A DNA stretch of 64,000 nt from Sialis fuliginosa (Eukaryota > Arthropoda > Insecta > Megaloptera > Sialidae). Below the pieces are notes generated by a model, which was not told where the DNA came from, did not search any database, and saw nothing but the letters and a program-made list of their open reading frames with translations. The stretch spans positions 15,597,001 through 15,661,000 of the forward strand of contig OY540817.1 in NCBI GenBank assembly GCA_961205875.1, read 5' to 3'. Numbering within the stretch: position 1 is the stretch's first letter; each line of letters starts with the position of its first letter. This document shows, in pieces, positions 36,601 through 64,000 of the stretch. A program made the position numbers and the translations under genes.

Positions 36601-39600
36601 AATGGTAAAATAATTTTTGATATCCTTTTTATACCATGTATATCATAAAAATTTAATTGTACTAATACTCCTTATTTTATAACTTAAAAAAGGTAAAAAA
36701 ATAACGTTTACACTTATAGGAAATTATAAATGAGTAGTGTTCGGTATTATCAAATTCAACTAAATGCTCCTTTAACTAACTGTCATATTATTAACAGAAC
36801 CAAACATAATACATTTAATTAAATGGAATTTTAATTTTCTGCACTGTTTTTACAACGCATATTATGTAGATACATTTTTCATTAAGAGCCTAAATATTGA
36901 TTTAAATCACGTTTGTAATATACAAAATCAAGGTTAAAATAGCATTTAGCGTTAAAGGAGCTTTAAACTATTTGAAAATACCGGATATAGGTGTTCTTAT
37001 TTTTAAATATTTGAAAAATACTATATTATAGATACCCGTATTCGAGTTTAATGGAATAAACAAATATGTAGGGGGACCAACATTTTAAAATCTTTCAATA
37101 ACTTGTAAAACAACTCATAGATTTAAAAATCTTATAATCTGCACAGACAGAAAAATTAACTGATCAATATTATAAAATTGACAAAATCGATGATGCTTAT
37201 TATTAATTCATTAAAACAAAAGTTAATTTAAAAATATTTGTTAGACAAAACAAATTTTATACACACAAATAATTTATTACAAATAAAATAAAATCCCACT
37301 GAATACCAATGGGGGACTATACAAAATGGCTGTTTTTCTATACCCAGTATGATAAATTAGTACGTTATAATTTTCAATTAATTTTAATACATTTAATTAT
37401 TCGTTTGACGTACGCTTTTGCAAGTTTAACCATGCTTAATTAATTTAAAGCCGGTACTCACTAACAGAACAAAAATAAAACGAGCATTTCTACATAATAA
37501 TCGTTTAGTAGGTTAGTGAAAGAGCAAACATATGTATTATTCTGATCAAAAAACTAAGTTACTGTGTTTTGATTAGTTTTTTGTTTGTAATTCCCATGAA
37601 CTCATGTTACTAATAAAACACCTATTTATTAAATCAATTTAAAGATCGAAATTCGCAAATGTAGTTTGTTTATGTTTTTTCTCCAATAATGGACAAAGTA
37701 AAACTAGTAATAGGAACCCAGTGATAGGCACTTGTTAATGATTAGAAAATGATAAATACTACGACACATAAGTAATAAAATAAAGAATCGTAAAATTTCA
37801 AACAATGTCAAACAGATACTATGAAAATATACAAAATAATTAATAAATAAATAAATAATATGTTATATGTCCACATTTTGACAACCATTGGCCGAATAAT
37901 ACAGTATTACAGTGGCGAAGCGTCCATGGAAGCAGGGGAGGCAGTGCTTCCCTTACTTTATGGGTAAATTAATACAAATCTGTGTTTTCAGTTCATAAAT
38001 AATTTAAAAATATTATTAGAATATTCATCTTTATGTGCAACTCAAACATTTTAACCAAAAGTCAAAAATAGCATATTGTATAGAAAATGACGTGAAAAGT
38101 TGAAATTTTCAAACCGCAGGTCTGTATCTCAAACCGTTCTCGAGATATAGCCTCTTAAAGTTTTAGTTTTTTTAAATTTTTGGAGAAAAAAGGCCATAAC
38201 TTTTGAACGTGTGGTCGGAATTGATTTTAGTTAACGGATTTGGAATCAGCGTGTCAAAATCTATATATTGACATGTATAATACCTTAAAACTCGAACAAA
38301 AAAATTTCGCGAAAAATCGAAAAAATTCAAAGGGGTATACCTTAAAAAAATGTCGATTTTTGTCCAAAATTTTTTTGTCCGATTTTAAAGTATTATACAT
38401 GTCATTATATAGATTTTGACACGCTGATTTCAAATCCGTCAACTAAAATCAATTCCGACCACCCGTTCAAAAGTTATGGCCTTTTTTCTCCAAAAATTTG
38501 AAAAAACTAAAACTTTAGGAGGCTATATCTCGAGAACGGTTTGAGATACAGACCTGCGGTTTGAAACATTCAACTTTTCACGTCATTTTCTATACAATAA
38601 ACATACTTTTAACGAAATCAAAAATTCGAAATTTTTTAGTGAAATTTCCTGCAGTGAACTTCAACTCGTCATACAAATATCGACTAAAATACAAGAAAAT
38701 AAGACGTAGAATCATTTAGTTACTATATAAATATATAAGAACTTATTTAAAAAAGTAAAAGATGAACTAAAGCTGTTTCATAACTAGTTTTTTTTGTTAA
38801 TAGGAGAGGGAGGATTGACAAAATATGCTTCCCTTTTAAAAATTTCACGCCTTGCCACTGCTGTACTACAGTAATGATAGTAATCAAATATCAACAAATA
38901 TTTCTAATTAGTACATTTAATTATACAAGTGTCCAACTCTGGGGTATTATCCAATACTCGTGCCAGTGATGGAGTAAAATCATTTATTTTGACCCAGTAT
39001 AATTTTCTATTCTGATATCAACTACAAACAAATAAATTCCTGTGTGCTCGCTCTTGCTCGCCTGTTTAATGAGTACACGGCTTTAGTAATAATTGTTGTG
39101 AACATTGGATGAATGAAATATATGTAACTAACATTGAATTCCTTCTTGATATAATTTAATATAATTTATCTGTATATTATACAACTCGTATATTAAATTT
39201 TAAATTGAAAATAGTTGAAATATTCTTTATTTATACTTATAATTAGTTTCATATTAATAAAATTTAAGAATGTTTTAATACAGTGTGCAATATAAGCAGA
39301 ATTTTGTAAAATAAAAGATAGTTATTTTTATTTCTAGACAAAATGAACAATTCAAGAAAATTATAAGCTGGGGGAAATGATTATTGTATATACTCATACA
39401 GTTTCATTTTTAATTTATATTGTATATTATACACCGTTTATATTTTGTAGAGCAGTGGTTTCAAATACACGACCCTTAAGATCCTAATATACGACTTGCG
39501 GACTAAAGCTTGTGGTTGATTTTACTAAAATAATAAAATAGAACATTTAAATAACAATAAATGATACAAAACTAGGAAATAATAATTTATTTTTTAACAT

Positions 39601-45600: not shown

Positions 45601-48600
45601 GCAATAAAAAAAAACAGGTCGATGACGTCATATATTTGAAGTATATCTATAAATTATCCATTATTTGAAATAATTTAATTTCCTTTGTCGTATTTAAACA
45701 GAATAATGTCTTCCATCTTATTTAAGAATTTGTTATATATCAGAAAAAAATGTAATATTCGACTATGTGTCGAATAGCCGACGATTATATATGACTGCAC
45801 TCAATTGGTCTCTTTTAGCAGAAACATCCACATGTGATATTTGAAGCCCGCACTAAAGCAAATAAAGGTTGCGCGAACCACGGCAACCTGGAGCGCGGCA
45901 TCAAACACTACCATCGCTCCGGGAAAGGCGGCCCGGGAACTGGAACGGAGTCGCAGGGAAACACCGGCAGGAGAAAACGTGACAACCAGCAAGATCACTT
46001 CCATTGGAGAGAGCCCAACGATGATGAGGATGATATGACTAATTTCGTTAACACCATGTGGAGTCTGGATATGGTCAAGAGGTACAAGAGAGATGTGAGG
46101 GAAGCTACGAAGTATATCGAAACGGCGTTAGTCATTGATAAGGCTATGTTTGATAAGAGAAATGGAAGCACTAGGGCTGAGGTCGTTCATGATGCCATAC
46201 AAGTTGCTAATATTGCTGATTTGGTAAGTTAATTTCATTAGCTATGCGCGCTAGATTTTAGCAATTGTTTTCTACAGAAAAATCCACAACCACAATAACA
46301 TAACTTGATACCTTGTTAGATAAATTTAGCCTGGAAGCAAATTCTTTATAATGCCAGATATTATAAAAATTGCTAAATAATTATAAAATAAATGTTAAGT
46401 AGTCGCTTTGGTTTCTGAATGGTTTAATTATAATTATATTACTGCTATTGGGAAGAGTGCCTATTATTACGCATATGGTTTTTTTATTGTTGTTTTGATC
46501 TGTTGTTTACGATAATTTATGTTTATGGGGGAAACCGATTATCATTTTTCATACACGTCCAAATTCAAGGGCGATATTATTGTCCTCGATAATTAATGTA
46601 TTTTCGTTAATTTATTTAAATTCAACAGAGCAATTATTTCATAATATAACTCAACTAATAAAACATATTTAAAATGAAGATTTTCTCGATATTCTGTTAG
46701 CAGAATCCGTGTGAAAACGGAAAAGGAAACATAAGAATACCATGTTTTTGACGTTTATGTTTAATTAAATTCACAAACGAGCTTGTTAAACTTATATTAA
46801 ATATTATTCAAAATGACTAAAAACTTTACTAAAATAGAAAGTGTGATGATGAGAATTATTTATTTGAGTTGGAAGAAGAGTTAGATATTTTATTATGCAG
46901 ATTGAGATTGTTTCAGATGATATTATACCTTTACATGTCTAATTTTAAGTGTCTAATATTAATTTATTTTCTATTTCCAAAATTAGATGTTATCTCTCCA
47001 GTTATTTATTACATTTCTAACTAAAGATAATTACTAATAGATATTTTAATTGTTAAAGTAAATAGCAACAAAAAAAATAGAACCAACTTTATTTTTTAAT
47101 TAGTTCTTTGAAAATTTATTGTTTTGTTCATAGGTAGATTTCAAATCTCGTAATTGGTAATATTCCAAAGTTGGGATATCCAAGTTACAGTAATTGCTAA
47201 TTAGAAAATTTTCTATGTGGCTATTTATCTTAAGCTGGTACGGCAACTGAATATGATCCGATTTACGAGTCACAATGCACATGCAATATTTTTCTACAAA
47301 AAACACCACAATTTATGTTATAATTCTGTAGCCGCTGTTGTAATACTTTGGTACCGTTTTTCCGCTCGTAGCAGTATTTACGGAACTCATTTGTGCTCGA
47401 CATCGAATTGTAAATGCCGCTGCATGGATTTAAAAACTGGATGAAATGTTACAGCGAACGTAATTAAAACCATTGTCAATAATACATGTAATGTCGGGCC
47501 GGGATATACAAGTATGTATCATATTTTACTATATGACCATACATTTTCTTTTAAATTAACAGCGATTAATGCTGTGATCTGAAAAAAACTAAAAATCAAA
47601 GATCTCTTAAAATGTTCAATGCAATGAGTAATAAAACGTTAGACGAATTCGAGGGTATATCCAAAAGCCAAAATTCCCTCAAAATTTCCAAATATAACTA
47701 TAATTTAATTAAAACCAAATTTAGTTTTTCCAATTTTGAAAGTAATATAACTGCATCATATATATAATATAATATAATATATGTTTACATTGCCTTATAT
47801 GTTATAAGTCAGTTTAAAATTCTATTTTCACCATATAATTTTGTAAGAATAAAAATTAGTTTTTTTGGTTACTACTAAATTTTTTGTGATTTTTTGTTAC
47901 CGAGTCCTGATCTATATCGTTGTTTACACTCGTCTGCATGCAGACAAAATAAAAAAGGTACTTTTGTGTCTCGTTTTTGTTGTTAAAGATTTAAATATGT
48001 TAATCCTTACGCCAAACACGTCACAAAAATATCTATTTTTATAAAACTATGTGTAGGTATATAAATATTCATATCTATAACACCAGATTTTATTCTGCAT
48101 ACCAGATCAACTTATTATCATATTTTATTTTATTGATTTTTAAAATCTACTTGAACACTTATTTGATTAACTAATTTTCACAATATTTCAAAAATAAATA
48201 TTATTTTAATGGAGATTTTTCAAATATTTTAGTTTGCAGTGAATAAACACAAATTAAATACAAATAGGATTGAAAATAATTATACCAATTAATTTTTCCA
48301 GTCCAGCTCGAATATTGTTGTTTTTTTTAATTCTCAAAAATCGGCAATAATTATATGAACAAATATAGTCACAATGTATATATAAATATTTATTACATGG
48401 ATGATTTATAAAAATTTTAATTATGCACAATTGGATTAGCATTATTATTTATAGATATATTATATTTATATATATTGTCTGCATACTTGGGAGGTAACAT
48501 TTTCTACATAAAAATATGAAATAACCATTCAAGTTAATTTTTTTATAATTTTACAGTACTTTCGAACTCTCAACACCAGGGTATCTGTTGTCTACATAGA

Positions 48601-51600
48601 AACATGGCAAGGCTCAAACCAAACACCCATAGATAAGAGCCAAGATATCAGCCGCGCTTTGAATAACTTTAATGACTACACATCAAGAAAGCTATACAAA
48701 ATTGATAAAGATACAACTCAGCTTCTAACGTAAGCAAAAAATAAATTTATCTAGGACATAATTGGATTAAATGTTTGCCTTTCTTTCAGCGGTGAAACGT
48801 TCTTAGGAGATGAAGCAGGTATATCAGTTCCAGAGACGGTTTGTACAGCGAAATCTGTAGGAATCAGTGTGGATATCAATACGTACGAACCTCATTTGTT
48901 GGCGGGAACGATGGCGCATATGATCGGGCATAATATCGGGATGGGTCATGATGATGGAAGTAAGTAAATACAAGCAAATATTTTAACATATTGCATTAAC
49001 TTCTATTAGAATTAGTCAGTCCAAGCTCTAGACTAGTAATTCACTTAGAAGTGTCCATTTTCGCTAATTTTTATAAAAAAATCGATATTTTACCTTTCTT
49101 GGAAGTGGAATGTTTCTTTACAATATAAATTCAATTTTCAATCAATATATTTCAAAATATTTAATCACCCAATTGTTCGACAAAATGTTTGAAAGAGACA
49201 TGATCATAGTGATCTAAATTAATAAAATATTGAAACCGTAAATTCTTGAAAATTATATAATTCTTTATTCCACGGCTACTGTGTATTTATATAAATAACA
49301 GTTTTATGCTGTAACATCATGGAAACAAAACACGACTTGATAAAGAATTTTTTAGTCTTTTGATGTTAAATCTTAGGTTTTCATAAAATATTAATAGCCA
49401 CGAATATGTACAGAAAAATTATCTAAATATTGATGAAAACCGCATTGAAATCAGTTCAATAATTCCCGAGTCTATAAGCCTCATACAAACGAACATTCAT
49501 TTTTATATATAGAGATTTGTGCATCTTTTTATTTTTATTGCAACAAAAAATCCACGATTTTTTTATTTCATGGAAACAATATACCCCCCAAATTGAAATT
49601 TTTGGAAGTATCATATTATAAAACAAAATAATTTTTGTATCATACACAACTCAATATTCCAAATGATTTCAGTTTCGTCATTTTCAAAATTACATCTACA
49701 CTATGAAAGATAAGTTTTTTTTCAACGAGCCATGTACATTGTATTGTACATCCCTATATTACATTTTTACTAATGTAAGATTCATCAAAATCTAAGTGTT
49801 TTCATTTCAATTCATCAAATTAACAAATAAATAAACTACCTATTGTTTTAGCAAATAAAAGAACAAGAAACAATTTTCCTTGTTATTTTATTTTATATTT
49901 ATGTTAGTAATGGAAGAATTTTTTACAACAAATAACAAACTGAAACGTTTTGTTAAGACATGAATAATGAATGTACACTATACACTCTTCATTTAATACA
50001 TGATCTGTCTGCAGACAGATGAATTGCTGTCATGTTGGTCTGTTTTCAGGAGAAGAATGCATCTGCCGCGATTGGCACGGGTGCATTATGGCGCAAAGCA
50101 TTGTGGGTGCAGACAACGTTCAGCCTTACAAGTTCTCGGAATGCAGCCAGGCCGATTATATTGACGCGCTGCGGATCGGCCATGGGATTTGTTTACTCAA
50201 TAGACCTAACGAGGTATTCATACCCTTAATTAGTTAATTGATAATGTCAATGTGGTTTATTTCACAAAACTGACGACGAAATTCTTGTTTATATTATGAT
50301 GTTGATGAATAAATTGAGAAGTAGGTATTTATTTTTTTCAAATTTTTAGTTAATAAAAAACGTTTAGTACTGTTATTTCCTAAAACTATTTTTCTGTAAA
50401 TTAATCGCTACTTTTGGATGTTTCAAATTTTGTCGCTATAACATTTAAATATTTAATAAATTATTTTTAAACTTCAACAGTGAATAAAATATTCGTTGAT
50501 TTTTACCGTCAAATTAATTAGAGAGCTAAAATTTCTATACAAAAATTAAATCATGATACGTAAAAAATATATTCACTATTTTTTAAAGAACTGTATTATT
50601 TGGCAGATTTTTTTAAATGTTAAATAACTCGGTGTAACTAAATTATAAATCAAATTTCAAAATAGCATTGGTACTGTATTTTTATGTAACTTCTGGTTTA
50701 ATGAAATTTATTCCCGTCAGCTGCCGGTCGGTAGGACGTGCGGCAATGGCGTCATCGAAGAAGGCGAGGACTGTGACTGTGGTACAATCGAAGAGTGCCA
50801 CGACACAGATCCTTGCTGCGATCCAATTACGTGCAAGCTCACCAAGGAGTCAGAGTGCGCTTCGGGACCATGCTGTAGCAACTGCCGTGTGAGTACTTAT
50901 AATATTTTCTACAAAACTTTCCAACTATTTTTTGGGGTTATTGTTGAATATTCTTTATTTTAATTGAATTGCTTTTTTATCTGATTCAACGTTTGAAATT
51001 ACACAGATTAACAAAATGTACTTGACCAACTTGGGTGTACTATTTAAGTACCCAAAATATTTTTCACCATCTTGCTTAGTTTCCAATATATTGACCTGCG
51101 AAAATTTAAATGGTACACCCGATATATGAACCACAAATATATACTAGAAAAATCTAAATCCACCATAAGATAATTAAAATTTATATCAATTGTAATACCA
51201 GACTAGAATTTTTCTAATATTGTATATTTTCGTCGTTATTTTACTACATTTTCTCTTGCCCCCAGTTAAAAGCCAAAGGCGTAATATGCCGCGACGCGAC
51301 AAACGAATGCGACCTGCCAGAGCACTGCTCCGGCGAACACGGCCAGTGTCCGCCGGACGTACACAAGAAGAACGGCAACTACTGCGGCGGCCATAACGGC
51401 TACTGCTTTAACGGGTTCTGCCCCACGCTCGGCATACAGTGCGAGCACATCTGGGGTTACGGTGCGATATCGGCCGACAAGGAATGCTTCGAGCAGTTCA
51501 ACTCAAAGGGGTCAATCAACGGGCATTGCGGGGCTGACAGTTCTGGCAGTTTCGTTAAATGTGAACCAGAGTAAGTAATTGCCATGAAAAAATAAAACTA

Positions 51601-54600
51601 ATAAAGATTATGCAGTCAGTTAGTATACGACGTAAATGTATCCTAAAGAGAGTTTTCAACGAACAAACTATCAGAAATAATAACCCACTTCTGGGAATAT
51701 TTAGTTAAGGAATGGCCGACCACATTTATGTATTTACTGATCATCCTATGGAACAATAAGCACACTTGTTTGTTTTCTAGGAACGTGAACTGCGGATCTC
51801 TCCAGTGTCAATTAGGTCACAGCGTTCCAGTCATATCTGGAATGGACCAACATTATTCCAGAACAATAATTTCAATAAAAGGGGTCGAATACGAGTGCAA
51901 GTAAGTATGAATAATGATGATTTGTTTACACCTAGTGCTTCTTGCATTTATTATAGTGCTGATTGTTTGGGCTTGGTTGGTTTTGTTATTTATAAAAATA
52001 AATCAACGTTGGTATTCTTATTCGATTTTTAAAAGTATTCGGTTTGGATCATTCGATAGTTTTTGATTTTGGGATTTGAACTCGGGAATTTTGTATAGAT
52101 TGAAAAATATTAACCAAACGGTAATTCGTATCAAAAAAGAACTGGATAATATATTTTGATCTATTGAGATAAATTCACCATTTTGAAATCCTTAAAAAAA
52201 ATTTGCTGACTACGAACATTAACCGAGATATCAATAAAATCAATTTTTCAGACGAGTTAAAAAATATCATAGGTCATTTTTTTTTCAAGATTAATGAATG
52301 GTTTAATATATTATTTATTATTATATTATTATTTAAACTGTATAAAAACATATATAATACCTCTAAAACGTGCAAGAATACCTTTTGTGTAACCTAAGTT
52401 ATATATTTTTGTAATAATTTAGCTAATTCCTAAAAATTCTCTAACTCAAAATTATGTCTATTAGAAACAAAAAGCATGGCTTTATCTGCAAAAATAATCA
52501 CTTATCCATAGTTGATTTAATTATTCTCATTTTCGCCGCAAAATGCAGTCTTTGAGAAGAGAAAGACAGCTGTTTGTTTCTAATAAATACAATTAACTGC
52601 TGTTTCTAAAAGTGTATTGTTTGATATGTTCAAAAACCAAAATGACTAACTCCATTTATTTTTCTCGATAATTGAGTTATCTAATAAATTATTTGATTAT
52701 TTACACAAATATCGAACTATTAATCGATTTTAAAACAGAAATCTGTACTTATTTTGTGGAGTTAGTTGTTTTTACATTTTTTGTTTAATTTGTTCATGAA
52801 TTCATCTTCATTTACAATTTCGTTATTTTTGAATCAGCTTTTTATTGGAATCCTGCTTGTTTTCTATATTCAATTAAACATTAATATGAAAAAGTCCGCT
52901 AACAATAATTAAAAGGAGTTGTGATATTGATTAATTAAATCAAATATTGAATAATTCGTTCAATCACGTTATTAAGGCTGTATTGCGGTCTGACAACTTA
53001 ATTTTTTTTATACAGATTTCGAAAGTAAAATATATTGAAAATATACTGTGAAAATTGTAGACCAAAATTGAAAGTATTTACGAAATTATAGCACATAGAA
53101 GAAAACGGGCCGTGTTATTTTAAGTGAATAAAAAATCTGTTACTTACTAAATCTTTAAACGTGTTTTTGGATTATCGTTTTTTCGGTTGGTGGGAAGCAG
53201 AAACGAAATTCTAATCAACCGATCGGACAATAATTTTAACACGTTGTTCTACAAATAATAGTTATCGTATTACCTAAAATTATTTATTTTTATTAATAAT
53301 AATTTTTTCTTTTATTTCTCGATTTTCAACGAAAAAAACACGATTTTTGAAAACTTTTGATATTTTTTGCGCAGATTTATATATTTGTATAATATGATTT
53401 AATAGCAAATAAAAACTAGTTGTTTGGGTATTTTTCATGCTTGGAATAAACAGTATGTGTTTTTTATATATCGTATCAACAACCCAAGGCAAATTTACGT
53501 AAAACAGCGACATTTGAACGCCATAAATAAATCCACATCAGATAGCATGATGACAAATTGTATCATACATTCCAATCGCTGCCAATGAATCATTTACAAC
53601 GTGGTTCTGAAAGTTCCCTGGCTAATGTTTACTCGAATATATTTTCAGGAGACCTCGGATTTTAGGATAAATTCCTATTTTCCAATAAAAAATATTTTTG
53701 TAAAACCACAAAGTTTAAAGAGGTTCTGATAATGTTTAATATATTTATTTTGCTTATTAGTGCCTTTTTTGTTTTAATTGCTTATTTTACAATTAGTTTG
53801 CCTGTTGCAAACTTCACTACGGTACATAATAAATCAATATTTACTCTCTTTGTCGTTATTGTAACAAATTCGTAGGCACATTTTTGTAAAATTTAGTACG
53901 AATTGAATCCATATAAAACACTGTATTAATTACGTTAATAACTGATTTGGTGTCACATTATTAACAAGAGAGAAAGTATTTGCATGTATCTGAAATAACA
54001 TGTACCATAGTCAAATTTTACATATGGAAAATATCAATGCATATAGTGTTTTTTCTGAATTAAGTCCCATTTTATTTTATTTTTTACTTTAAAAAAATAA
54101 TAGTAAAATTGCTTATTATTTAGGTACGTTATTTTATTTTAAATTTAAACTTCTTAAAGTATTATTGACTCCTAAATGTGAAATTCTAGAGTTTGAATAT
54201 CCGAGGTCTAATTCTCAGTTAACAAAGTGCATGATAAAGATGTTAATTATCATCTAGGTATAAACCACAACTTCTTGGTTAGATATTTTCATTAGATGTA
54301 ATATGTATCATAAAATTATACGTAAAACCAAGAAGATGAGACTTATACCTAGAATTCTTGTCAGATCTTTGGTAAACTTATTGAAAAGCATTGTTGTTGA
54401 TCAGTGTTTCCCAACCTGTGTTTCATTAATGTCTTCAAAAATGTTACATAACATTTTATTTTATAGAAATCATAACCTGGATTAAAATAGACAAATGAAA
54501 TCAATTGTCTAATATTGCTGTCCAGTAACTTTCTTTCATTGCAACACTTCATTTTAGTGACTAAATATATATGTTTAATTTATTGAAAATTTTCTAGATG

Positions 54601-57600
54601 TCACGGGAGCTCCCCATCTGTAAAAAATACGTTGCGGGCTCCTCCAGTAGACAAAAGGTTAGGAAACACTGTTCTAGATTATATCTTCCGCCCTTCCCTG
54701 ACAAAATCAAAATATAGATATATGAATTCTTGAAGATTCACTTCTACAGATAATTTTACTATATGAACCCACAAAACAAGTTTTTTCAACATCCTTAGGT
54801 GAAGTTCATCCTTTCGAAAAAAAAACCGATATATTTTTCCTATTAAACGACAGAATATCTTATTCATTTAACTTCATAAGTAGATAAACTAATAAGGGTT
54901 CCTAAGATGCTTAAATGGTATCAGCAGTTTTGTTTTAATATCAAAAACTTTTGGCTTCGATATGTACTTCATGAATATTAATCTAAAAAGAGGTCAATAG
55001 GTTACAACTATTGACTCAATGAAAATTTTCCTATACGACCTCTACCTTAAACAACCAGTATTTGATAACACCTTCCATTATTATTTTTTATAACCAAAGT
55101 AAGTTTGTATAAGTTTCACTGTACTTTGCTCGCAATTGAAGAGTAGAAATTGAACCCAGTGTCAAAAATTAAATTAAGGGATTACATCTAATCGTCACTT
55201 CGGAAAATGATATTTCTTTAGGAATTTTTTAAGAATAATTAAAAAAGCGATCAAATGAAATTTGATAGGTCTATTGTACATGTCTCAAAATGTAAAAAAA
55301 CTTTTTTTCTAAATGAAATTTAAAAAAAATGGTGACTTTAGCGTTGCTACACTGTGTATCTTTTTGTTAAATGCTTCACTGCGAAAAACAACTTCCATGG
55401 ATCAACATCTAGAACAAAAAAAATCTCGTTATTTACGTGAGTTTCCTATCGAAGTACACAAGATTATTAAAAAATATCGATTTTTGCAAAAAAATTTTAA
55501 CAATGAACAAAAAATCGCTTTTACCAATCGTAAAAATCGTGTGTACTTCGATGTAAAATCTATCTAAGAAGTTACAGATACGATTTCAACTCGATCGGAT
55601 AGAAAATGGCCAAGATACGTTTTCTGCAGTTTTAAAAACGTGGTTTCGATAAAAAATGAGTTTAAAGTTTGAAAACTGTTTTACTACATTCAAACGTCGA
55701 CGTTAGTTCCGACTATTTTTCGAGACTATGTCGGTTTAACGATTTTCGGTTGCTTATTTTGCTTCTGTTTTGGCTTGAGACCAAATCACGGTGCCCCTTT
55801 ACATTACATAGCTGAACCAAACAACCTAGATGGTGAAAGTGATAATGAGTATATTCATTATCACTTTCACCATCTAGGTTGTTTCGTTCAGCTTTAGAAA
55901 GTGAGCTCTAAAAATTAAAAAAAAAATTCACTTATAATTTATTTTGAATATCATTTTTATGATGTTTATACATTATTTAAACCAATAAAAATAACCTCAA
56001 AAATTAGTTAGTACACTAGATGTAACGCCTTAAAAAGATGTACCACGAGTGTACCAAAATCAGCACAGTTGGAACATAAGACTTATTTTATTTTTATATT
56101 TATTATTTTAAATTAGATAGTCTATTCCTTCTTGGTATCCTTATGTATGTCTGTATACGATCTAAATCGATTGGAACCTTTCTAAACTTTCTTTACAGTA
56201 TCTTTCAGAATAAACGTCAAGCTATTTCTGTTTGAGATAGGTTTATATATGAAACTTTTAGGGAATATATAATTCCGAATGAATATTTATCATTCTAAAA
56301 GTTTTTAATCTGATTACAAGAAGAATTTATCTTTGAAGAGCATTAAAAACGATTTATCATAAAATACATCTAGGTTTCCACTAAATCGTAACCAAGTAAG
56401 ACATACCCTAAAAGTTTTACATATATTTATCATAGATACAGGTATAAATGAATGATTGGATTTTCTTAAACAATTCTTAAGCGATCATCACTTGTTTTAA
56501 CAATGCACGACGTCCTGTATTTGCAGAACGACGCGTGGTACCATTGAGAAGACGGATATTCCCGATATGGGCCTTGTGCGTGACGGCACGCAGTGCGGCG
56601 AGAACTTGATCTGCGTGAACCAGACCTGTACCAGTATCTTCCCGCACATAGACCAGGGCAAGTGCCCTTCAAACCTTAACAACCTCGAGTGCTCTGGACA
56701 CGGGGTAAGTCAGTCTATCTATCTGAAGATGGCGATACAATACACACTGAAAAAAATTGCTGAGAACAAATAAATATTATTTGATTCAAGTAAACAAAGT
56801 ATTTGTGCAGCTGCCAATAATTTCGTATTAAAAAATTAATTTTTTTTTTTCGTTATACCCAATAATTGTTCGTACTTATTTCTTAAAGAAAAAGGGGAGG
56901 GGGTAATTTTAAATTACCTTTTCTAAAGGTATGACCTGACTCACCGACAGTGGATTTGTAATAAATTATTAAATACATCAATTCAAATAATTATTGTATT
57001 AAATAAAATAATATTCATTTGTATCAATAAATTAGGCTGTTTGGATCAAATAGATTCCTATAAATAACTGAGTTATTGGACACAACGTCAATTGATTATT
57101 TAGTTCATATAAAATTTACTTGCTTTCAGTAAATATGATTCAAATAATTTGAGTTATTTGTATCCATTAATTTTTTTTCAGTGTATGTATATGTAGTATA
57201 CATACTATAACATTTGTTTTTACTTCTGTTAAACCGTAGGTGTGTACAAACGTGAATAAATGTTACTGCAACTCCGGTTGGAGCGGCCCCGACTGCTCCA
57301 TCCAAGTAGAAATCACCGACCCCCCAGTGATCGTGACGGAGATCGCCCCCACCGTTGTAAACCACATCGAAAGCAAAATGGAAAAGAAAACTACCCACTA
57401 CGGTAAGTTTTTCAATTCAATTGATTCTGTAATCCTTCAAACACCAAATATAATCAGAGCGAATTTATAATTGATTTTTGTGACAGTTTACATGAAAATG
57501 AGGCCCCCTAGATTATTTTTTAATAATTTTTTTGTATTAATTATTTTAATATCTTGACAGGGACTGTTTTCGTTTAAATTGTATATGATATGATAACATA

Positions 57601-60600
57601 TGTATTTTCTTAATTCTTGTTTGATTTTAAACGTTTTCTAGGAGCAGAAGAAGATTTATATTCAATAATATTTTTTACTTATTTAGTGTGCTATTAATAT
57701 TGACCCACTTCTACCCAAATATTACTAATAAAATAATTTCAACGTAATGAAACATAATTTGATTATTCTCTTGGTATTCTTCAGATTTACGATAACACAT
57801 ATATTTCTGTATTGGATTTAGTTCTACTATCTGAAATTATATAATTATATTTAAGGTGACTTAAGAAATAATTCTAGATTATCGCGCCTTATATTTTGAC
57901 TGAATATAATTTTTCGAGGTTCTATCCCGCGCCATTTAATCTATTTTAACAAACTTCAGTGATACATAATTTTACTATTATAATTTCATTATTAAACATC
58001 TTTTTAAAATAAGGGTTCATATAATATATAACAGTTGTTATTGTTATGACTCTTTGGAAGAAGAAAATCAAGAAATTTTAGTCGCAACACCAATCAAAAT
58101 ACAAAACGAGATACAATTTCGAAAATTCATATTTGGTCAAAATTAAAAATTTAACTTTCTCAGAATAACTTTTCTTTACATTAAATTATAAAACATATTT
58201 GTCAAAATTCCCTCAAACTTTCCAATTTAATTAAACAATTGAACAATACGGGTGAAGTTGGGTACGAGACGCGGTCGGTCCGTTCTCGTTGATTGCACTA
58301 GAGTGTTATTCCAGGTGACGGAGAGAATGACAACCTGAGCACGCTGTCTATGGTGTTTATACTGGTTGGGGTCGTCTCGCTAGTCTTCACTTCTTTTGCC
58401 TCAATGGCCGTTTGCTACAGGTACTTTGTCTGGGCTTCAGAACGGCAATATTGACAGTTATTACAAATACATCAATCGCGTGTAACTCATCTAATTCTTA
58501 TACTTTCTACTTAGGTATCATTTATATTAATTATTGATCATATGATGGTCGAGTTCACTTTGATTAACTATCTAAAGTGAAACAGAATTGTATCCTGTAA
58601 GTATTAAATCATTAAAATTGATCGTTTAAAGTGATAGATGAACCAAGTAGTGGCAAGTTCTACTCTTGTTCATTTTGGTTTAACTGTGTAAATATGTTCA
58701 CTGTTTTTGTCAAATATTATTTATGAATTGATTTAGTATTTAGCTGTAATTGTGTATATAAATTTTGTATCAATTTTAATTAATTACAATACGGACAACA
58801 TCAATTAAAGTAAATTGAACAGTTCGCTTTTGATGATACGTATGGATAAAATATGATGTCAGTTTAGATAATAAATCAAATTGGTTATACCAAGAACTTT
58901 AATCATTCTTTTAAACTATTCCTGCATTTATCCATTAACACAAGGATTAAATATGATATTTGCCTTTTATTGTTTTTATTTTGAAAATTCTCAATACAAT
59001 TACTTACTTCAAATACAAAAATAAATAATTTTTTTTAAATTTTATAATTCTTATTTATATTGAAACCATTAAAAAATGTTCCTAAGGATATATTTTTCTG
59101 CATTCGTTTTTTTAGACTTTCGTGTCCATAGTTCATTTTACGTGTTGTCTCTTATGTCAGACTATTCTCCAGGAAGCATTAATTTAATAAAACGGTTCAT
59201 GACAACTTCTGAAAAAGAATCCGACAAGAGAGCAGAACATTAATTTTACAACGTCCGCATTGAAATGATATTAAATTACGAATAAATTCCTAATTTTTAT
59301 AATATGTCTACTTTTCGTTACATAAAATATAAACGTTTCCATTTTAGCAATAGCTGTTATTTTTAAATGGAAAATGCAAGTTTAAACCAGAGTAGAAAGT
59401 ATATTGATCATTAAAAAAAGATGTATTTGTACTGTTTGAGGCCTGGACTGTTGGTGTCTGTGTCTCCCACCCAGTGTAAGTGGCGCGCAGTGTCGCTTGG
59501 TGGCTGCTGCAATACCGGATGTGACGTGTAGCGCTCTGATTATATTGTTGCTGTTTGTTGGACACTACTACTACAATCTATCACACTACTTGCCGATTGT
59601 CAGGTTATGTTCAACCGTCTGTGCGTGTTTTTAATCGCTTGGCTTTGGTGATAAATCATAATAAACTGCTTTATTCAATGTTAATTATAAGAATTACGAT
59701 ATTTCTTTCTTGTGTTCTATCTTGCTATGCATTGATGATTGTTCAAATTTTGATCATAATTTTTCAGTCTTATTTTAAATATGTTTTTTTTATGACCGTG
59801 AGTCGTGACAATACAAGGGATAGAACATAAAAGAAACAAAATTCATTTGAGACAAAAGTATTAAGTTAAAAATATCTGAGAAATGGATAATACAGAATTT
59901 TATAATGATTTCTTCTGTGTCGTCTTCTAGATTATGATATTTTTTAACAAAATTACAATAGAACATTCCTAAAATAATGTTTAAAAAATTAAATACTGCT
60001 CATATCAGAAATATCTCAAACAAGAAGACGAACCAAATCCAAGAAATAATTAACAATATATTTTAAATATTAATTACGATTATATGAAACAACTAATAGT
60101 TAAAATGTATTATATCAACAAAAAATAACAAGATACTGTATTTAATTGTTTCATAGAAATTTTAAAAATCGATTTGGACAAACTGAATAACATGGAGCAA
60201 CTTATTAAATGTAAAGAAATCTACCTTTCAAAATATAACTTTCGTATCTACTAACATAATCATCTTTAAAAAAAAATGCTTAATATATTCTAAATCCCAA
60301 GTCCTGCACTTTTACCAATTTGATAGTATAAATGAATAAGTATGTATTTATCAATTTGGTGAATCTGTAAAACATGCAACATTGAACATAGATTAACAAA
60401 CAGGGCCGGCAGAAAAGATAAATTTCGAGTGTCGAGTAAAAAAGTGGGGGGAGTTGGAGAGGTTTTTTTTCTTAAATATTATTTTTGAAACATTAAAAAG
60501 TATCAATGAATACAGTTATATAAATGAAAATTCAAATTAGCTTTTTATCCATAAAATCTGACTCAATTATTAATTTATTCTTTGATAATGCGAAAAGAGT

Positions 60601-62018
60601 CACTATGCTTTTCCAATTTCTGGTGGGTAATTCGACACACGCAAATTTTTCGAGTGTCTAGTACAACATACAGAAGACTAGACTGATGCCGGCCTTTTTT
60701 TATTAAAAGAACTCATTTCTTAACGTGAAATATTCCAATTTTAACATTAGTATGTTCCAACTCCAAGTTATTCAATTTGACCAGTATTAAGAACAAACGA
60801 ATAAAGGCCAGTATTGATCATTGTAAAGAAGAAGGGGTGTTTACAAATTATTTAAGAGAATTAGCCATAAATAAACTATTACGCCTTTAAAGGTCTAAGA
60901 TCCCCAAGTTATATACTTTCCCCAATACTGAATGAGTGAAATTTTACATGCCTATACTTGATCGATTTAGCCAAATTGTAAAACATATATAGAAATAGTT
61001 ATTTTAATCTAAAACTATTACTACATCTTTAAAGGTCATCTAAGATATTTCAGTTCCTCATTTTAGCTAATATTTAATTCTTAGAAAAGGAAAGATAAAT
61101 TGGCGTATCATTCAGATTTTAAAATAAATATCAATTGTTAATAATTGTTTAATTTATTGATAATAAATGTTTTATATTGTCTTTGAAAGTATTTCAGTGA
61201 TAATTGATTAACAGAGAAACGTCTATTTGGAACTATCATCTCTCATACATACTAAATTCAATTGTAATTTAAAGCATATTTGCATATTAAAAATTTTTAA
61301 CTGACGACTCTGGGATAATATGTATGGAAATGACAATTTTGATATTTAAACCATAAATTTTGGTGACAGTTTCATATATGGACTACCATTGACCATTGGT
61401 TATCTATAATCTTTCCTAATCTAAGATTTAATAAGTGAAAGTTTAAACTAAAAAACATGGCATTTAAAGAAATCTATTAACAATTATTAAATCCCCAAGT
61501 GCTTCACTTTGATCAATATTGATGAAATGAAAGCGCACAGGCTTGTACTTGATCGGTGAAACTAAAGAACTTGGTGTTTGTTTAAAATAACAAACAAACG
61601 ATTATAATATCTTTCAAAGCGTCAAAACCCCAAGTTCTTTACTTTGGCCGTAAATTATAAGCGCACTGGTCTGTACTTGACCAATTTGGTAAAACTAAAG
61701 AACATTGGGAATGGTTTTAATAACGATCAAATAATCTGTAAGTGTTCTTAATTTTTACCATAAGCTTAAAGCGCACAGTTGAACATAGCCCGCACAAAGT
61801 CGAGTACAATATGAAATGAACTGGTTGACTCGATGGATGTTTCTCTTTTTTTCCATACCTCCCCTGTTTGGTTGTGTTTCTGTCTGTCTCTCTGCATGCA
61901 CCGGACGACGGACTGCAGAGAATTACCACGGCTCTAACACGGTATTCCTAGTGGGTACGCTGATGTCGGTTGTGGGGGGTGTGTTCATTTTATTTGCGAT
62001 GATGGCACTCTGCTACAG
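33603..62018 (+). CDS. mmd: ADAM11/22/23-type pseudoprotease gene (mind-meld-like), partial; span of all exons in the window
   Basis: This entry is the whole gene as visible here; the exons are listed separately. The spliced product is about 748 residues with transmembrane exon a, or 746 with exon b. Domains by window-product residue: prodomain end 1-152 with RRKR at 149-152; metalloprotease-like about 186-402; disintegrin about 403-490; cysteine-rich about 491-640; EGF-like about 646-678; stalk; membrane helix about 722-746. The zinc site has Met335 where active ADAMs have Glu, while all three His are kept. Vertebrate ADAM11, ADAM22 and ADAM23 are also non-catalytic and act in cell adhesion and synaptic ligand binding; the insect member of this group is mind-meld. 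A neural surface role here is inferred from family only. Start, signal peptide and cytoplasmic tail are outside the visible exons. Every junction keeps frame and has GT-AG ends. Confidence 0.9.
33940..33976 (+). repeat. gtct/gtgt microsatellite
   Basis: tgtctgtctgtctgtgtgtgtgag-type run in the first intron of the visible gene, 260 bp after exon 1. It may be the edge of a decayed mobile element. Confidence 0.7.
35144..35757 (+). mobile_element. Helitron-like non-autonomous element, full-length candidate
   Basis: Begins near aacatgtcctgactgactga and ends gcgaagccgcgactatcagc followed by TAA then T. The CGAAGCCGCG...AGCTA end resembles the 3' ends of many insect Helitrons (CTRR before T). Sequence from its 5' part recurs inverted at 15085-15538 and in part at 6228-6290. 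There are no helicase or Rep frames. Family assignment is tentative. Confidence 0.5.
37910..38860 (+). mobile_element. Foldback/MITE element, copy 2, with CAGTGGC termini (hAT-like)
   Basis: Bounded by CAGTGGCGAAGCG at the left and the near reverse complement CACGCCTTGCCACTG at the right. The flanking 8-mers cagtatta (37902-37909) and ctgtacta (38861-38868) agree at six of eight positions, fitting a decayed hAT-type target duplication. The inner part is the same long palindrome as at 3371-4238, in the opposite orientation. No transposase frame is present, so it is non-autonomous. Confidence 0.8.
39453..39804 (+). mobile_element. Degraded hAT-like MITE
   Basis: Left end CAGTGGTTTCAAATAC and right end GTTTGGAAGCCACTA form imperfect inverted termini. 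The right end, read in reverse, matches the solitary start CAGTGGTTTCCAAACTCAAT at 15976, so both belong to one family. No target duplication is recognisable. Confidence 0.55.
41041..41383 (+). mobile_element. MITE with long (about 75 bp) inverted termini starting GCCCGGTATTATAAA
   Basis: The left arm starts gcccggtattataaataatt and includes ccagc..acgctatctactagg. The right arm carries the reverse complements (cctagcagatagct, gctggaagct, ttataataccgggc). The arms agree over most of 75 bp. A fragment of the same family lies at about 46318-46360 (tggaagcaaattctttataa) near the coding exon ending at 46223. A single CAGTGGCG end at 40997 belongs to something else. Confidence 0.75.
41403..41915 (+). 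mobile_element. Inverted-repeat element, copy B
   Basis: The left arm (cacgggaaggtgtt, actaatcagctgt, tttcaaatgaatgcag) recurs inverted near the right end (ctgcatctatttgaaaatga, cagctgatta). A related copy in reverse orientation lies at about 26000-26135. The open frame at 41453-41656 crosses this repeat and is not considered a gene. Confidence 0.6.
42276..42345 (+). CDS. mmd: ADAM gene exon 2 of the window (prodomain)
   Basis: Completes the split Thr codon and adds 23 residues, including [12 protein letters not shown]. The acceptor is ttttttccag and the donor is CAG|gtaaat; it exits in phase 0. An 8.6-kb intron separates it from exon 1. The joined peptide continues the ADAM prodomain alignment with no gap, so no exon appears to be missing between them. 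Confidence 0.88.
42346..44922 (+). other. Intron 2 (2.6 kb)
   Basis: Contains the short MITE at 43258-43402. Otherwise AT-rich with no recognised feature. Confidence 0.8.
43258..43402 (+). mobile_element. Short MITE with CGTTTCCCAAAAT ends
   Basis: About 145 bp between agcgtttcccaaaat and attttgggaaacgtt, near-perfect inverted termini. The inner sequence aaccttggggttctac resembles many insect hAT-derived elements. No clear target duplication remains. It lies in the intron between exons 2 and 3. Confidence 0.7.
44923..45069 (+). CDS. mmd: ADAM gene exon 3 of the window (prodomain)
   Basis: 49 codons, phase 0 at both ends. The acceptor is attttattttag and the donor is TCG|gtgcgt. It contains [20 protein letters not shown] then CNGVSGVI, the strongly conserved prodomain core of ADAMs (HCYYxGxV...S.AALSTC.GLRG). 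G+C is clearly higher than in the flanking introns. A hAT-type miniature element sits only about 75 bp beyond the donor. Confidence 0.95.
45145..45305 (+). mobile_element. Small hAT-type MITE in the intron after exon 3
   Basis: 161 bp with termini CAGGGCCGTAACTA and TAGTTACGGCCCTG, a perfect 14-bp inverted repeat. The flanking 8-mers are gtttatac (45137-45144) and gtttagac (45306-45313), seven of eight identical. It sits 75 bp downstream of a coding exon. A lone related end, cagggccgtaact, occurs near 30774. Confidence 0.9.
45423..45500 (+). mobile_element. Tiny MITE with 17-bp perfect terminal inverted repeats
   Basis: 78 bp from ATTAGGGTGTGTCAAAA to TTTTGACACACCCTAAT. The arms are exact reverse complements. 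A related end, agggtgtgtcaaa, occurs at about 25542. The superfamily is not assigned. It lies in the same 752-bp intron as the hAT MITE at 45145. Confidence 0.8.
45822..46223 (+). CDS. mmd: ADAM gene exon 4 of the window (prodomain end, furin site, start of metalloprotease-like domain)
   Basis: 134 codons, phase 0 at both ends, donor TTG|gtaagt. The acceptor is a tandem ttagcag: splicing at the first AG would add one in-frame Gln codon (45819-45821). After a conserved segment with HVIFEAR comes a Gly/Ser/Lys-rich linker, then RRKR at residues 149-152 (45969-45980), a furin-type cleavage site that would remove the prodomain in the secretory pathway. An acidic [10 protein letters not shown] stretch follows. 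The metalloprotease-like fold then starts with [14 protein letters not shown], the usual ADAM first strand (K-Y-[IV]-E-x-x-[LV]-V-[VI]-D). Confidence 0.95.
46224..48556 (+). other. Intron 4 (2.3 kb)
   Basis: A fragment of the GCCCGG-type MITE lies near 46318-46360. A CpG-richer patch with no coding signal is at 47220-47460. Nothing else was recognised. Confidence 0.75.
48557..48729 (+). CDS. mmd: ADAM gene exon 5 of the window (metalloprotease-like domain)
   Basis: 57 codons plus two bases. The acceptor is taattttacag and the donor is AC|gtaagc. It encodes [17 protein letters not shown], the conserved second-strand region of ADAM metalloprotease domains (R-V-x-L-V-x-x-E-x-W). A helix follows that ends in [11 protein letters not shown]. 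Only 60 bp of intron separate it from exon 6, the shortest intron in the gene. Confidence 0.95.
48790..48959 (+). CDS. mmd: ADAM gene exon 6 of the window (degenerate zinc-binding site)
   Basis: Completes a Thr codon, adds 56 residues and ends one base into an Arg codon; donor GGA A|gtaagt. It contains the zinc-site helix at residues 334-345, [12 protein letters not shown]. Active ADAMs have HExxHxxGxxHD. The three His and the Gly are kept, but the catalytic Glu is Met (codon 48920-48922). Zinc might still bind, but peptide-bond cleavage is not expected. This fits the non-catalytic ADAM11/22/23 group. Confidence 0.95.
48960..50049 (+). other. Intron 6 (1.1 kb)
   Basis: Largely occupied by the dispersed repeat at 49142-49516. 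The remainder is AT-rich with no feature. Confidence 0.8.
49142..49516 (+). repeat. Dispersed repeat, copy B, in the intron after exon 6
   Basis: Diverged direct copy of the repeat at 30983-31378. Shared segments: gacatgatcatagtga, catggaaacaaaacacga, attcccgagtctataagc. It ends atttttatatatagagat. Confidence 0.75.
50050..50213 (+). CDS. mmd: ADAM gene exon 7 of the window (Met-turn and end of metalloprotease-like domain)
   Basis: Starts two bases into the Arg codon and carries 54 further codons, ending in phase 0 at GAG|gtattc. It encodes [13 protein letters not shown], which holds the conserved Cys pair and the CIM Met-turn that lies under the zinc site in metzincins. The [14 protein letters not shown] helix and the domain-final [10 protein letters not shown] follow. 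All family-typical disulphide cysteines of this part seem present. Confidence 0.95.
50214..50720 (+). other. Intron 7 (507 bp)
   Basis: AT-rich, GT-AG ends. Nothing else seen. Confidence 0.85.
50721..50888 (+). CDS. mmd: ADAM gene exon 8 of the window (disintegrin domain)
   Basis: 56 codons, phase 0 at both ends. The acceptor is attcccgtcag and the donor is CGT|gtgagt. It reads [15 protein letters not shown] at its start, the hallmark opening of disintegrin domains (C-G-N-x-x-x-E-x-G-E-x-C-D-C-G), then DPCCDP and GPCCSNC, with Cys spacing typical of the family. It covers the first two thirds of the disintegrin domain. Confidence 0.95.
50889..51265 (+). other. Intron 8 (377 bp)
   Basis: AT-rich, GT-AG ends, pyrimidine-rich acceptor. 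Nothing else seen. Confidence 0.85.
51266..51570 (+). CDS. mmd: ADAM gene exon 9 of the window (disintegrin loop and cysteine-rich domain)
   Basis: 101 codons plus two bases; acceptor tcttgcccccag, donor GA|gtaagt. The disintegrin loop reads [16 protein letters not shown]. It has no RGD, as usual in ADAMs, where this loop is C-R-x-x-x-x-E-C-D-x-x-E-x-C. The cysteine-rich domain follows, with the conserved [14 protein letters not shown] motif and then CFEQFN. The exon is rich in GC-ending codons and stands out sharply from the AT-rich introns. Confidence 0.95.
51781..51900 (+). CDS. mmd: ADAM gene exon 10 of the window (cysteine-rich domain)
   Basis: Completes a Glu codon, adds 39 residues and ends two bases into a Lys codon; acceptor tgttttctag, donor AA|gtaagt. 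It encodes [10 protein letters not shown], the conserved C-G-x-L-Q-C motif of ADAM cysteine-rich domains, and ends in GVEYECK. The next intron is 4.6 kb and full of repeats. Confidence 0.93.
54402..54671 (+). mobile_element. hAT-type MITE in the intron after exon 10
   Basis: 270 bp with termini CAGTGTTTCCCAACCT and AGGTTAGGAAACACTG, matching as inverted repeats with one mismatch. Flanking 8-mers ttgttgat and ttctagat agree at six of eight positions and fit a hAT target duplication. It has no coding capacity. Confidence 0.82.
55810..55893 (+). repeat. 84-bp near-perfect hairpin (39-bp stem, 6-nt loop)
   Basis: The left arm starts agctgaaccaaacaacctag and the right arm ends ctaggttgtttcgttcagct. 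The 39-bp arms pair with one mismatch around a gtatat loop. It lies in the intron between exons 10 and 11. It could be a foldback remnant, a template-switch product or a source of small RNAs; nothing in the sequence decides this. Confidence 0.9.
56527..56704 (+). CDS. mmd: ADAM gene exon 11 of the window (cysteine-rich domain end, first half of EGF-like repeat)
   Basis: Completes the Lys codon and adds 59 residues, phase 0 exit at GGG|gtaagt; acceptor tgtatttgcag. It encodes [12 protein letters not shown] then CVNQTC, matching the ADAM cysteine-rich motif D-x-G-x-V-x-x-G-T-x-C-G...C-x-x-x-x-C. NQT is a possible N-glycosylation site. It ends in CSGHG, the first part of the EGF-like repeat, so that repeat is split between exons 11 and 12. 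Confidence 0.95.
56705..57239 (+). other. Intron 11 (535 bp), inside the EGF-like repeat
   Basis: AT-rich, GT-AG ends. No other feature recognised. Confidence 0.85.
57240..57402 (+). CDS. mmd: ADAM gene exon 12 of the window (EGF-like repeat end and extracellular stalk)
   Basis: 54 codons plus one base; acceptor taaaccgtag, donor TACG|gtaagt. It completes the EGF-like repeat with [19 protein letters not shown], the C-x-C-x5-G-x-x-C ending. A Pro/Val/Thr-rich stalk and the charged segment [11 protein letters not shown] follow. It exits in phase 1 and can join in frame to either transmembrane exon. Confidence 0.95.
57403..58314 (+). other. Intron 12 (912 bp), before the alternative transmembrane exons
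   Basis: Mostly AT-rich. The last 70 bp before exon 13a are CpG-richer (gagacgcggtcggtccgttc), unlike other acceptors of this gene, and may carry splice-regulatory sequence. Confidence 0.7.
58315..58420 (+). CDS. mmd: ADAM gene exon 13a: alternative transmembrane segment a
   Basis: Enters with the last two bases of a Gly codon, carries 34 codons and exits two bases into Arg (phase 1 to phase 2). The acceptor is tgttattccag and the donor is CAG|gtactt, weaker than most donors of this gene. It encodes a short acidic stalk end (GDGENDN), a hydrophobic helix of about 22 residues from [10 protein letters not shown] to FASMAV, and CYR. The helix, its position and the CYR ending match those of exon 13b, so the two look like duplicated alternatives. 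Confidence 0.9.
60291..61790 (+). repeat. Family of imperfect hairpin units between the two transmembrane exons
   Basis: Units at about 60291-60380, 60896-60986, 61488-61575 and 61625-61710, plus a partial one at 61735-61785. Each opens with a variant of CCCCAAGTTCTTTACTTT. Most have a 3' arm near TACTTGATC...AAACTAAAGAAC that is roughly complementary to the opening arm. Units at 61488 and 61625 give the clearest hairpins, with the 5' arm matching the 3' arm reverse complement at most of about 20 positions. Arms can also pair between units. The array lies wholly in the intron between exons 13a and 13b. It could be a splice-controlling RNA structure or a decayed tandem or mobile repeat. Confidence 0.6.
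60403..60698 (+). mobile_element. Possible degraded hAT-like MITE inside the 13a-13b intron
   Basis: Left end CAGGGCCGGCA and right end TGCCGGCC form a short inverted repeat; the last bases of the right end have changed. It contains two direct copies of a tttcgagtgtc motif. It interrupts the hairpin-unit array between the first and second units. Confidence 0.45.
61919..62018 (+). CDS. mmd: ADAM gene exon 13b: alternative transmembrane segment b
   Basis: Same phases as exon 13a (1 in, 2 out), with 32 full codons; acceptor ggactgcag, donor CAG|gtcagt. It encodes ENYHGSNT, then a hydrophobic helix from [10 protein letters not shown] to LFAMMA, then LCYR. Length, helix position and the CYR end match exon 13a, but the other residues differ greatly, so the duplication is old or the two are functionally distinct. 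Two further donors in the same phase lie 39 and 63 bp downstream (after 62057 and 62081) and could add 13 or 21 residues just inside the membrane. Confidence 0.88.
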
Positions 62019-62108
62019 GTCAGTCGTAGTACACAAAAACTTCTCCCTGTGTCTCAGGTTAGTGGGCAGACAAAGACCAAGGTAGTTCACTGTTACCTTT
62101 TCACGCAT

Positions 62109-62182
62109 CTGTCTCTCTCTCTCTCTGTCTCTCTCTCTCTCTTTCTATCTCTCTGTCTCTATCTCTCTGTCTATATCTTTCA
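62109..62182 (+). repeat. CT-rich microsatellite downstream of exon 13b
   Basis: Runs of ctctctctgtct-type repeats. The tract lies 90 bp after the exon 13b donor, in the following intron. Pyrimidine-rich tracts of this kind can bind PTB-like splicing regulators, but that role is only an inference here. Confidence 0.8.
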
Positions 62183-64000
62183 ATGGCTCCTGCATTGTTG
62201 GAAATTTTATTTTCGCGAGGGGGGGTGGGGGGTGACAATTTTATATTAATATTTATAAATCAATATTAACGTCATATGTAGCGAATATAATATTTATTTT
62301 ATTTACATGATTTATTTATTATTATTCGGTCTTAAACAATGGACAAAATTCTATACTTTTTGGCGGCTCAATTATTATCAAAAAAGAACTATGTCATATA
62401 GAATAAATAGTTATTACTGTAATAAATAATATATAAATGACTTTAAATTAAGAAATCAAAATTATGACCCATGTATTATTTTCGGCTTATTTTGTGCTAT
62501 TTAAGCTATAGTCATATTAAATGAAAAATACATCTTTATACAAAAATATATTAAATTGTGTAGGTCAGTTATTAAATACTAAACATTTATTAAGTATCTT
62601 AAAAATGTAACTTTGTATATATTATACTTTATAAAAAGTCCTCATCAGATTCATTAAATTTCAAATTATTCTACTATACTTACTCACGTATTATTGTGAA
62701 TATATTTTGAATATGGAAGATTAATTAGAGTTTAAGAAGATTATAAACATAAAGCATAGAAATAAGTAATTTTTATTTATTATCTACTTTATTGTTTGTA
62801 CTTTCCATCCTAAATAATCAATTTTTCATAACCAAATTACATACTTATAGAATATAACCTGAGAATAGTTGTGAAAATATTCTCTTTTTTTATTGAATTA
62901 TATATGATACTTATAATATTAATTATTAATTGATTGATAAAAAATCTAAGATTGACATATTTTTAGATATGAATAATTAAATAATACAAACATTTTATAA
63001 AAATAGTTTTAACATCCTGAAATAAAATACATTTATGAATATCAAAGTCTTGGCATCGTGTAATAATTTAAATAATAATAATTTTAATTGGAGAAGCAAA
63101 ATCATGTAAATAGCACAATTTTTCGTATGGGGAAAAAACATTTCTTTTTTTAGTTTGAAACATTAATAACAAAAATACTATTTCCAACAATGTGCACATT
63201 TAACTGTAGGTACATGTTACTCGGGCTTCTATTCTTTATTTGAATAACTTAAATGAATATGAAAAATAAATTTCTATAAATTATTTCTCCTATTCATTTA
63301 GTTTATTTAGATTTTAGTTGCAGTAATAACTATTAAAATAGTTATGCATGATATGTATTTTTATATGGAATATATTAAAATTACTTTATACTTACACAAT
63401 TTTTATTATGAATATGTTCAATTATTTTAAAGTATAAAGTAATATATAATTATAATATTCTGTATTTAAATATATGTGTCATAGAGAACACAGGCTGATC
63501 ATAAAGTCGTAGCCTACGTCTTTTCGGTCACCTGTATTTGTATATTCTCTCTCTCTCTTCCGGCATGCGTGGATTCATTCATACCATCGCTTTATGTTTT
63601 GCACTGCACATGCTAAACTACCCCCTTAGAATAAACTCTACATCACATCCCACTGTCTGTTCTACTTAAGTAGTAACGAGCCACAATGATAACCTAAAAT
63701 AAGCATGTTTGTGTACTTAAGTATAGGCCTAATTAATGTTAAGTGTATTATAATATATAATATATTTATTACTTTTTATAAGTATCAACATATCATAGGA
63801 TAATTGGCTGGGAGTTTTAGATAAAGCCGACGTTAAAATCCCACAAGTTCAGTAATTGTCTTCAAATGTGATTCGATTAACAATAAAAGCGTTGACAAGA
63901 GCTGAATTTGCTCGATTTGTGCTTCGACTTCATCTAAATCTCCCCACCAATTGATAAAATCAAAAAATTAATCTACGTATGTACATCCTTCTTCCTGATT
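62183..64000 (+). other. Intron after exon 13b, continuing past the window edge
   Basis: Very AT-rich. No exon starting in the required phase and encoding a basic ADAM cytoplasmic tail was found. A CpG-richer patch with another short ct repeat lies at 63500-63660. The tail exons are expected beyond the window. Confidence 0.5.

Follow-up and report, generated by a model that had tools for sequence, protein, structure and literature searches.

An ADAM11/22/23-type pseudoprotease gene

The window, i.e., the whole 64,000-nt stretch of Sialis fuliginosa DNA analyzed here, carries on its plus strand nine exons that join in frame into 615 codons (45819..57402), followed by two further predicted exons, 13a (58315..58420) and 13b (61919..62018), each of which encodes a stalk end and a membrane helix. 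The first of the nine (45819..46223), recognized by its open frame and in-frame join, encodes the end of a propeptide, an RRKR motif, which we take to be a furin-like site, and the start of a reprolysin-like domain, to which the Pfam Reprolysin profile gives a match below the curated cut-off (E = 0.01). This domain continues through the next two exons, 48557..48729 (Reprolysin, E = 3.7e-07; in-frame join) and 48790..48959 (E = 2.6e-08), the second of which holds a pseudo-active site, and the metalloprotease-like region ends in the exon at 50050..50213, as recognized from an alignment with ADAM22 and an in-frame join. The first part of a disintegrin domain follows at 50721..50888 (Pfam Disintegrin, E = 2.8e-12), and its end is found together with an ADAM cysteine-rich domain at 51266..51570 (Pfam ADAM_CR, E = 1.4e-15). 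The alignment with ADAM22 further covers the continuation of the cysteine-rich domain (51781..51900), the exon with its end and the start of an EGF-like domain (56527..56704), and reaches into exon 12 (57240..57402), which encodes the end of the EGF-like domain and a stalk. Exon 12 is the last exon before the pair and ends in phase 1 with TAC G|gtaagt. The order of domains is that of an ADAM, with the reprolysin-like, disintegrin, and ADAM cysteine-rich domains recovered by Pfam and the EGF-like domain recovered weakly, all its Pfam matches being below the cut-off (best E = 0.0003).

Among the best 60 of the 77 matches to PDB chains, the closest relatives are four ADAM22 chains (E = 1.3e-90 to 1.9e-90), and the ADAM22 ectodomain aligns over residues 93-583 of the query (E = 1.3e-90), up to and into the EGF domain. 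In the exon at 48790..48959, the catalytic Glu of the HExxH motif is replaced by Met, and all three zinc-binding His residues are retained. The ADAM consensus is given as HExGHxxGxxHD in a table in which the active site of ADAM22 itself reads QSLAHNIGIISD (PMC11266112); unlike that site, the one encoded here keeps all three His. With only the Glu replaced, binding of a metal without catalysis is conceivable. These features fit a mind-meld/ADAM22-type pseudoprotease of the ADAM11/22/23 group, the placement in that group coming from the ranking of the PDB chains. We call the gene insect type because of its reading as mind-meld (mmd), the Drosophila gene named as the fly counterpart of ADAM11/22/23 (PMC7503973). 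Against a simple one-to-one equation of mmd with ADAM11/22/23 count a tree from 2007 in which mmd takes a basal position, with Neu3, in the ADAM B subgroup (PMC1867822) and the labeling of the fly protein as a predicted metalloendopeptidase (PMC7503973), which contrasts with the site lacking the catalytic Glu in the present gene. A tblastn search with a 312-residue query retrieved no relatives from prokaryotic or viral contigs, only pattern stretches (12 genome and 3 viral).

Elsewhere in the window lie two long and related palindromes (3600-4168 and 38100-38573), whose main arm pairs are 84-91% complementary. The two can be aligned over about 590 nt and may be copies of a mobile element of the foldback type. 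A small palindromic element with 51-nt arms that are 88% complementary and have no spacer (55801-55902) lies in the large intron before the exon at 56527.

Two homologous exons for a single membrane anchor

Exons 13a (106 nt) and 13b (100 nt) are each entered in phase 1 and left in phase 2, are bounded by GT-AG introns, and encode about 33 to 35 residues. Each completes the codon split at the end of exon 12 and then encodes, in the same order, an outer flank, a single hydrophobic helix, and CY, followed by an AG|gt exit that leaves a CYR ending. The maximum hydropathy over 21 residues is 2.39 in both. The coordinates, phases, hydrophobic helices, and CYR endings listed in a preliminary description of this locus were all correct upon rereading, as was its statement that 13a spliced to 13b would read RELPRL and then TAA (61935-61937). 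Its further point, that skipping both exons shifts the frame of the tail, follows from their lengths, both of which are 1 mod 3. A full receptor can thus come from inclusion of a single exon alone, since both together lead to a stop and neither leads to a frameshift and loss of the anchor. The same description had concluded that the pair consists of mutually exclusive helix exons of an mmd/ADAM22-type gene. In view of the homology of the exons, the frame logic, and the gene family, this is still the best reading. The frame marks transcripts with both or neither exon as aberrant but does not thereby show how the choice is made. On these combined grounds, we infer, with good support, that 13a and 13b are used one at a time.

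The strongest evidence that the pair is more than a product of chance is the homology of the two exons to each other. They share 15 of 32 aligned residues and 59% of their nucleotides, and their DNA alignment score of 16.7 was reached by none of 2000 codon shuffles (maximum, 6.9). Of 2000 segment shuffles, 1 attained the protein score; with CYR held fixed, 5 of 2000 did. In a three-frame scan of the plus strand from 44 to 64 kb, the two are each other's best match (score of 63), and no third copy of the membrane exon was seen, the next best scores being 34 with 13a as the query and 32 with 13b. On this evidence, the exons are tandem duplicates.

A targeted scan points in the same direction. 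With an acceptor score of at least -1, a donor score of at least 2.5, a length of 90 to 115 nt, phases 1 to 2, an open frame, and a hydropathy of at least 1.6, thresholds that were set after 13a and 13b had been seen and were just loose enough for both, the two exons are the only matches on both strands of the 64-kb window. With the same thresholds, 40 single-strand simulations, each of 64 kb of first-order Markov sequence with intron composition, contained 5 matches in total, so that about 0.25 would be expected on two strands. Stricter cut-offs (acceptor of at least 0, donor of at least 4, and 60 to 220 nt) left no match on either strand of the window. When the region 57403-63990 was scanned with wider limits (acceptor of at least -4 and donor of at least 3), four rows were returned, all variants of 13b; 13a is missing from them because its donor scores 2.6. 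A scan by codon usage and splice sites, with no membrane or homology criteria, did not single out the pair: at least three control stretches on the minus strand (up to 25.9) ranked above both 13a (11.8) and the long form of 13b (15.8), as did two plus-strand stretches elsewhere, with scores of 22.4 and 18.2. We rejected such an exon finder as proof since control stretches outscored both exons. It is hardly credible that either or both arose by chance as open frames in an AT-rich intron: although the window has many hydrophobic open frames and exon-like scores, 13a and 13b are the sole matches of the targeted scan, are homologous to each other, and occupy the position at which an ADAM gene requires a membrane anchor.

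Their composition also sets them apart from their surroundings, with GC contents of 0.50 (13a) and 0.49 (13b) versus 0.22 to 0.32 in the flanking introns and the stretch that follows; among overlapping 100-nt intronic windows, 14 of 3017 have a GC content of at least 0.5. At third codon positions, the values are 0.63 and 0.67, respectively, versus 0.576 across the 615 upstream codons. We simulated drift by redrawing 30, 50, or 70% of the sites toward intronic composition (5000 runs). A GC content of at least 0.49 was then found in 3.4 to 4.0%, 0.3 to 0.5%, and 0.06 to 0.08% of the runs, respectively, and an open strong helix was found in 13 to 14%, 3.6 to 4.1%, and 0.9 to 1.0%. Silent changes are not clearly in excess between the exons, whose differences by codon position number 12, 12, and 15 of 32 codons. 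This may be expected of an old and divergent pair but gives no direct proof of selection. The lack of such an excess, together with the weaker donor of 13a (2.6) and the weaker acceptor of 13b (-0.9), might be taken as a sign that only one exon works and the other is a decaying duplicate. We consider this very unlikely because both have stayed open, with their phases, CYR, helix, and GC-rich third positions kept despite 41% nucleotide divergence, and simulated drift at half of the sites seldom preserves such features.

Splice signals and the downstream tail

The splice scores of the pair are unremarkable. Among the acceptors of the 11 exons scored, that of 13b is the weakest and that of 13a the third weakest (0.2). 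For 13b, a donor at 62018 scores 6.0 and a second in-frame donor, CAG|gttagt at 62057, scores 5.1; use of the latter would give a possible longer form (61919..62057) with 39 additional nucleotides encoding 13 residues (SVVVHKNFSLCLR) just inside the membrane and with the phase unchanged.

Upstream of 13b, at 61888..61898 on the plus strand and 21 to 31 nt before the exon, lies CTCTCTGCATG, a pyrimidine motif running into TGCATG. We take the former to be of the PTB type and the latter to be of the Rbfox type. A CU-rich tandem repeat lies shortly downstream (62108..62178). Within 150-nt flanks, CTCTCT and GCATG occur next to 13b only of the 11 exons, with one CTCTCT upstream and 12 downstream (overlapping counts) and one GCATG upstream. 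In the window as a whole, TGCATG shows no clear excess (13 observed versus 10.3 expected), and CTCTCT is in clear excess (27 observed versus 5.2 expected), in good part because of the repeat at 62108-62178. Placed between CU motifs and a GCATG, 13b looks like the regulated exon.

Three explanations for an exclusive choice were considered. RNA pairing as the switch left no signal in five stretches of about 300 nt near the splice sites: in each of 10 pairs of regions, between 4 and 19 of the 20 controls matched or exceeded the observed stability. An uncontrolled listing of inverted repeats numbered 108, of which the longest 25 are mostly AT rich. An incompatibility of U12 and U2 sites was rejected by reading, as the donors do not resemble the U12 consensus. 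Finally, at 3498 nt, the intron between 13a and 13b is not too short to be spliced.

No tail exon was recognized downstream of the pair before the end of the window at 64000; the tail exons probably lie beyond it. Between the two exons, an exon-like, hydrophobic open stretch on the plus strand (59475..59603; phases 2 to 2) has an acceptor score of 5.4, a donor score of 0.1 (at 59603), and a GC content of 0.48. It is entered in the phase in which 13a is left and would fit in frame behind it; read unspliced, it remains open as far as 59631 and then meets a stop. These properties, together with the unrecognized common downstream exon and the variable splicing of ADAM22 tails described in mammals and Xenopus (PMC3055250), lend some substance to the idea that the two exons head separate 3' ends, with 13a having a tail of its own in the 3.5-kb gap (e.g., the stretch at 59475) and 13b using a downstream tail. 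In that event, the swap would change helix and tail together. We nevertheless hold this to be improbable: 13a has retained a donor and is left in the same phase as 13b, which would be expected with one tail exon common to the two; the donor score at 59603 is close to zero; the stretch would add a second hydrophobic segment; and comparable or higher summed scores are also found on the minus strand.

A predicted choice of anchors and its parallels in other receptors

Returning to the reading that we favor, we are largely confident that this ADAM11/22/23-type receptor gene possesses tandem-duplicated anchor exons of which each mRNA carries one. The anchor exon of an insect-type relative of ADAM11/22/23 would have been duplicated in tandem long ago, and each transcript would most likely contain one of the two copies, so that two receptors would result that share the same ectodomain and differ in the outer end of the stalk and in the transmembrane helix. 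Transcripts with both exons would end six codons into 13b, and those with neither would shift frame and lack the anchor; such aberrant products would probably be removed by nonsense-mediated decay.

The helices themselves differ in their motifs. That of 13b has three Gly and a GxxxSxxxG motif, which forms a glycine-zipper-like face, and that of 13a has one Gly and no pair of G, A, or S spaced by three residues with another of these. Read by eye, 13a has SxxxTxxxS, and, with Thr counted as small, this weakens the contrast to a matter of degree. The outer flank of 13a, with two Asp and one Glu, is more acidic than that of 13b, with one Glu and one His. Both exons place a Cys beside the inner face of the membrane, which we take to be a possible lipid site. 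The zipper-like face of 13b would be suited to close pairing of helices and the SxxxTxxxS of 13a less so; given helices that differ in kind, pairing or clustering, and hence placement, would be likeliest to change. The choice of helix would thus most likely alter the packing of the receptor in the membrane and its destination. A swap of the helix alone, if true, would be a natural experiment on the role of a single-pass anchor in a nonenzymatic ADAM. Far more speculatively, the whole ADAM11/22/23 group might share an ancient anchor switch, by which insects, and perhaps vertebrates in ADAM23, choose under cell-type control between the zipper helix of 13b and the looser helix of 13a, so tuning clustering or placement in axons and dendrites of a pseudoprotease receptor that is identical in all else; we view so broad a scheme as improbable.

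Mammalian ADAM23 may occur in alpha and beta forms with an alternative transmembrane exon. In our search of the literature, we found no report of a swap of transmembrane exons in an ADAM, including ADAM23. Vertebrate ADAM22 and ADAM23 belong to the same gene group and likewise vary their membrane-proximal end by splicing, but the forms described in the work consulted differ in the tail or lack the anchor, as in Xenopus ADAM22, for which tail variants and a form lacking the membrane region are described (PMC3055250). The search also yielded no description of mmd isoforms. The main text of PMC6025963 is without "mmd," and the five terms searched are absent from the Kassiopeia paper (PMC3923563). 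It is quite possible that an mmd exon pair is already annotated in flies. The mmd gene lies on the fly X chromosome. New mutually exclusive exons have been predicted in 17 genes of that chromosome (PMC3228551), among which mmd may be found. With regard to the properties used in that prediction to define clusters, 13a and 13b are adjacent, similar in length, identical in frame and phases, and homologous; with regard to an internal position, upstream exons are present and the downstream exon was not recognized before 64000. The isoforms of Crumbs were considered as a parallel and set aside, as they vary an EGF repeat and not the anchor (PMC5312091).

Alternative pairs of transmembrane exons are a known kind, since two cases are established, and in both, as here, each exon of the pair encodes a single membrane helix. 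In several arthropods, N-cadherin has a mutually exclusive pair over the transmembrane region, ME-18a/18b, whose use has been confirmed in Drosophila and Tribolium, Apis having a single 18a-like exon (PMC2655722). Like 13a and 13b, this pair spans the membrane anchor, but it belongs to a cadherin and its exons encode 68 to 70 residues rather than about 33 to 35; no difference in localization was seen between the variants in that study, and graded homophilic adhesion was reported (PMC2655722). The second case is exon 17 of insect Dscam1, where 17.1 and 17.2 are two mutually exclusive transmembrane exons (PMC8042237, PMC12081453), the choice between them affects subcellular localization, and forms with 17.2 are preferentially axonal (PMC12081453). 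The likeness lies in the alternative transmembrane segments of a nerve cell surface receptor; Dscam1 is, however, an unrelated gene of the immunoglobulin superfamily with three further clusters of variable exons, and its exon usage and function were shown experimentally, whereas 13a and 13b are known here from sequence. If the present reading is right, this gene would offer, beside Dscam1, a further case in which to ask whether the choice of anchor directs a receptor to one neuronal compartment or another.
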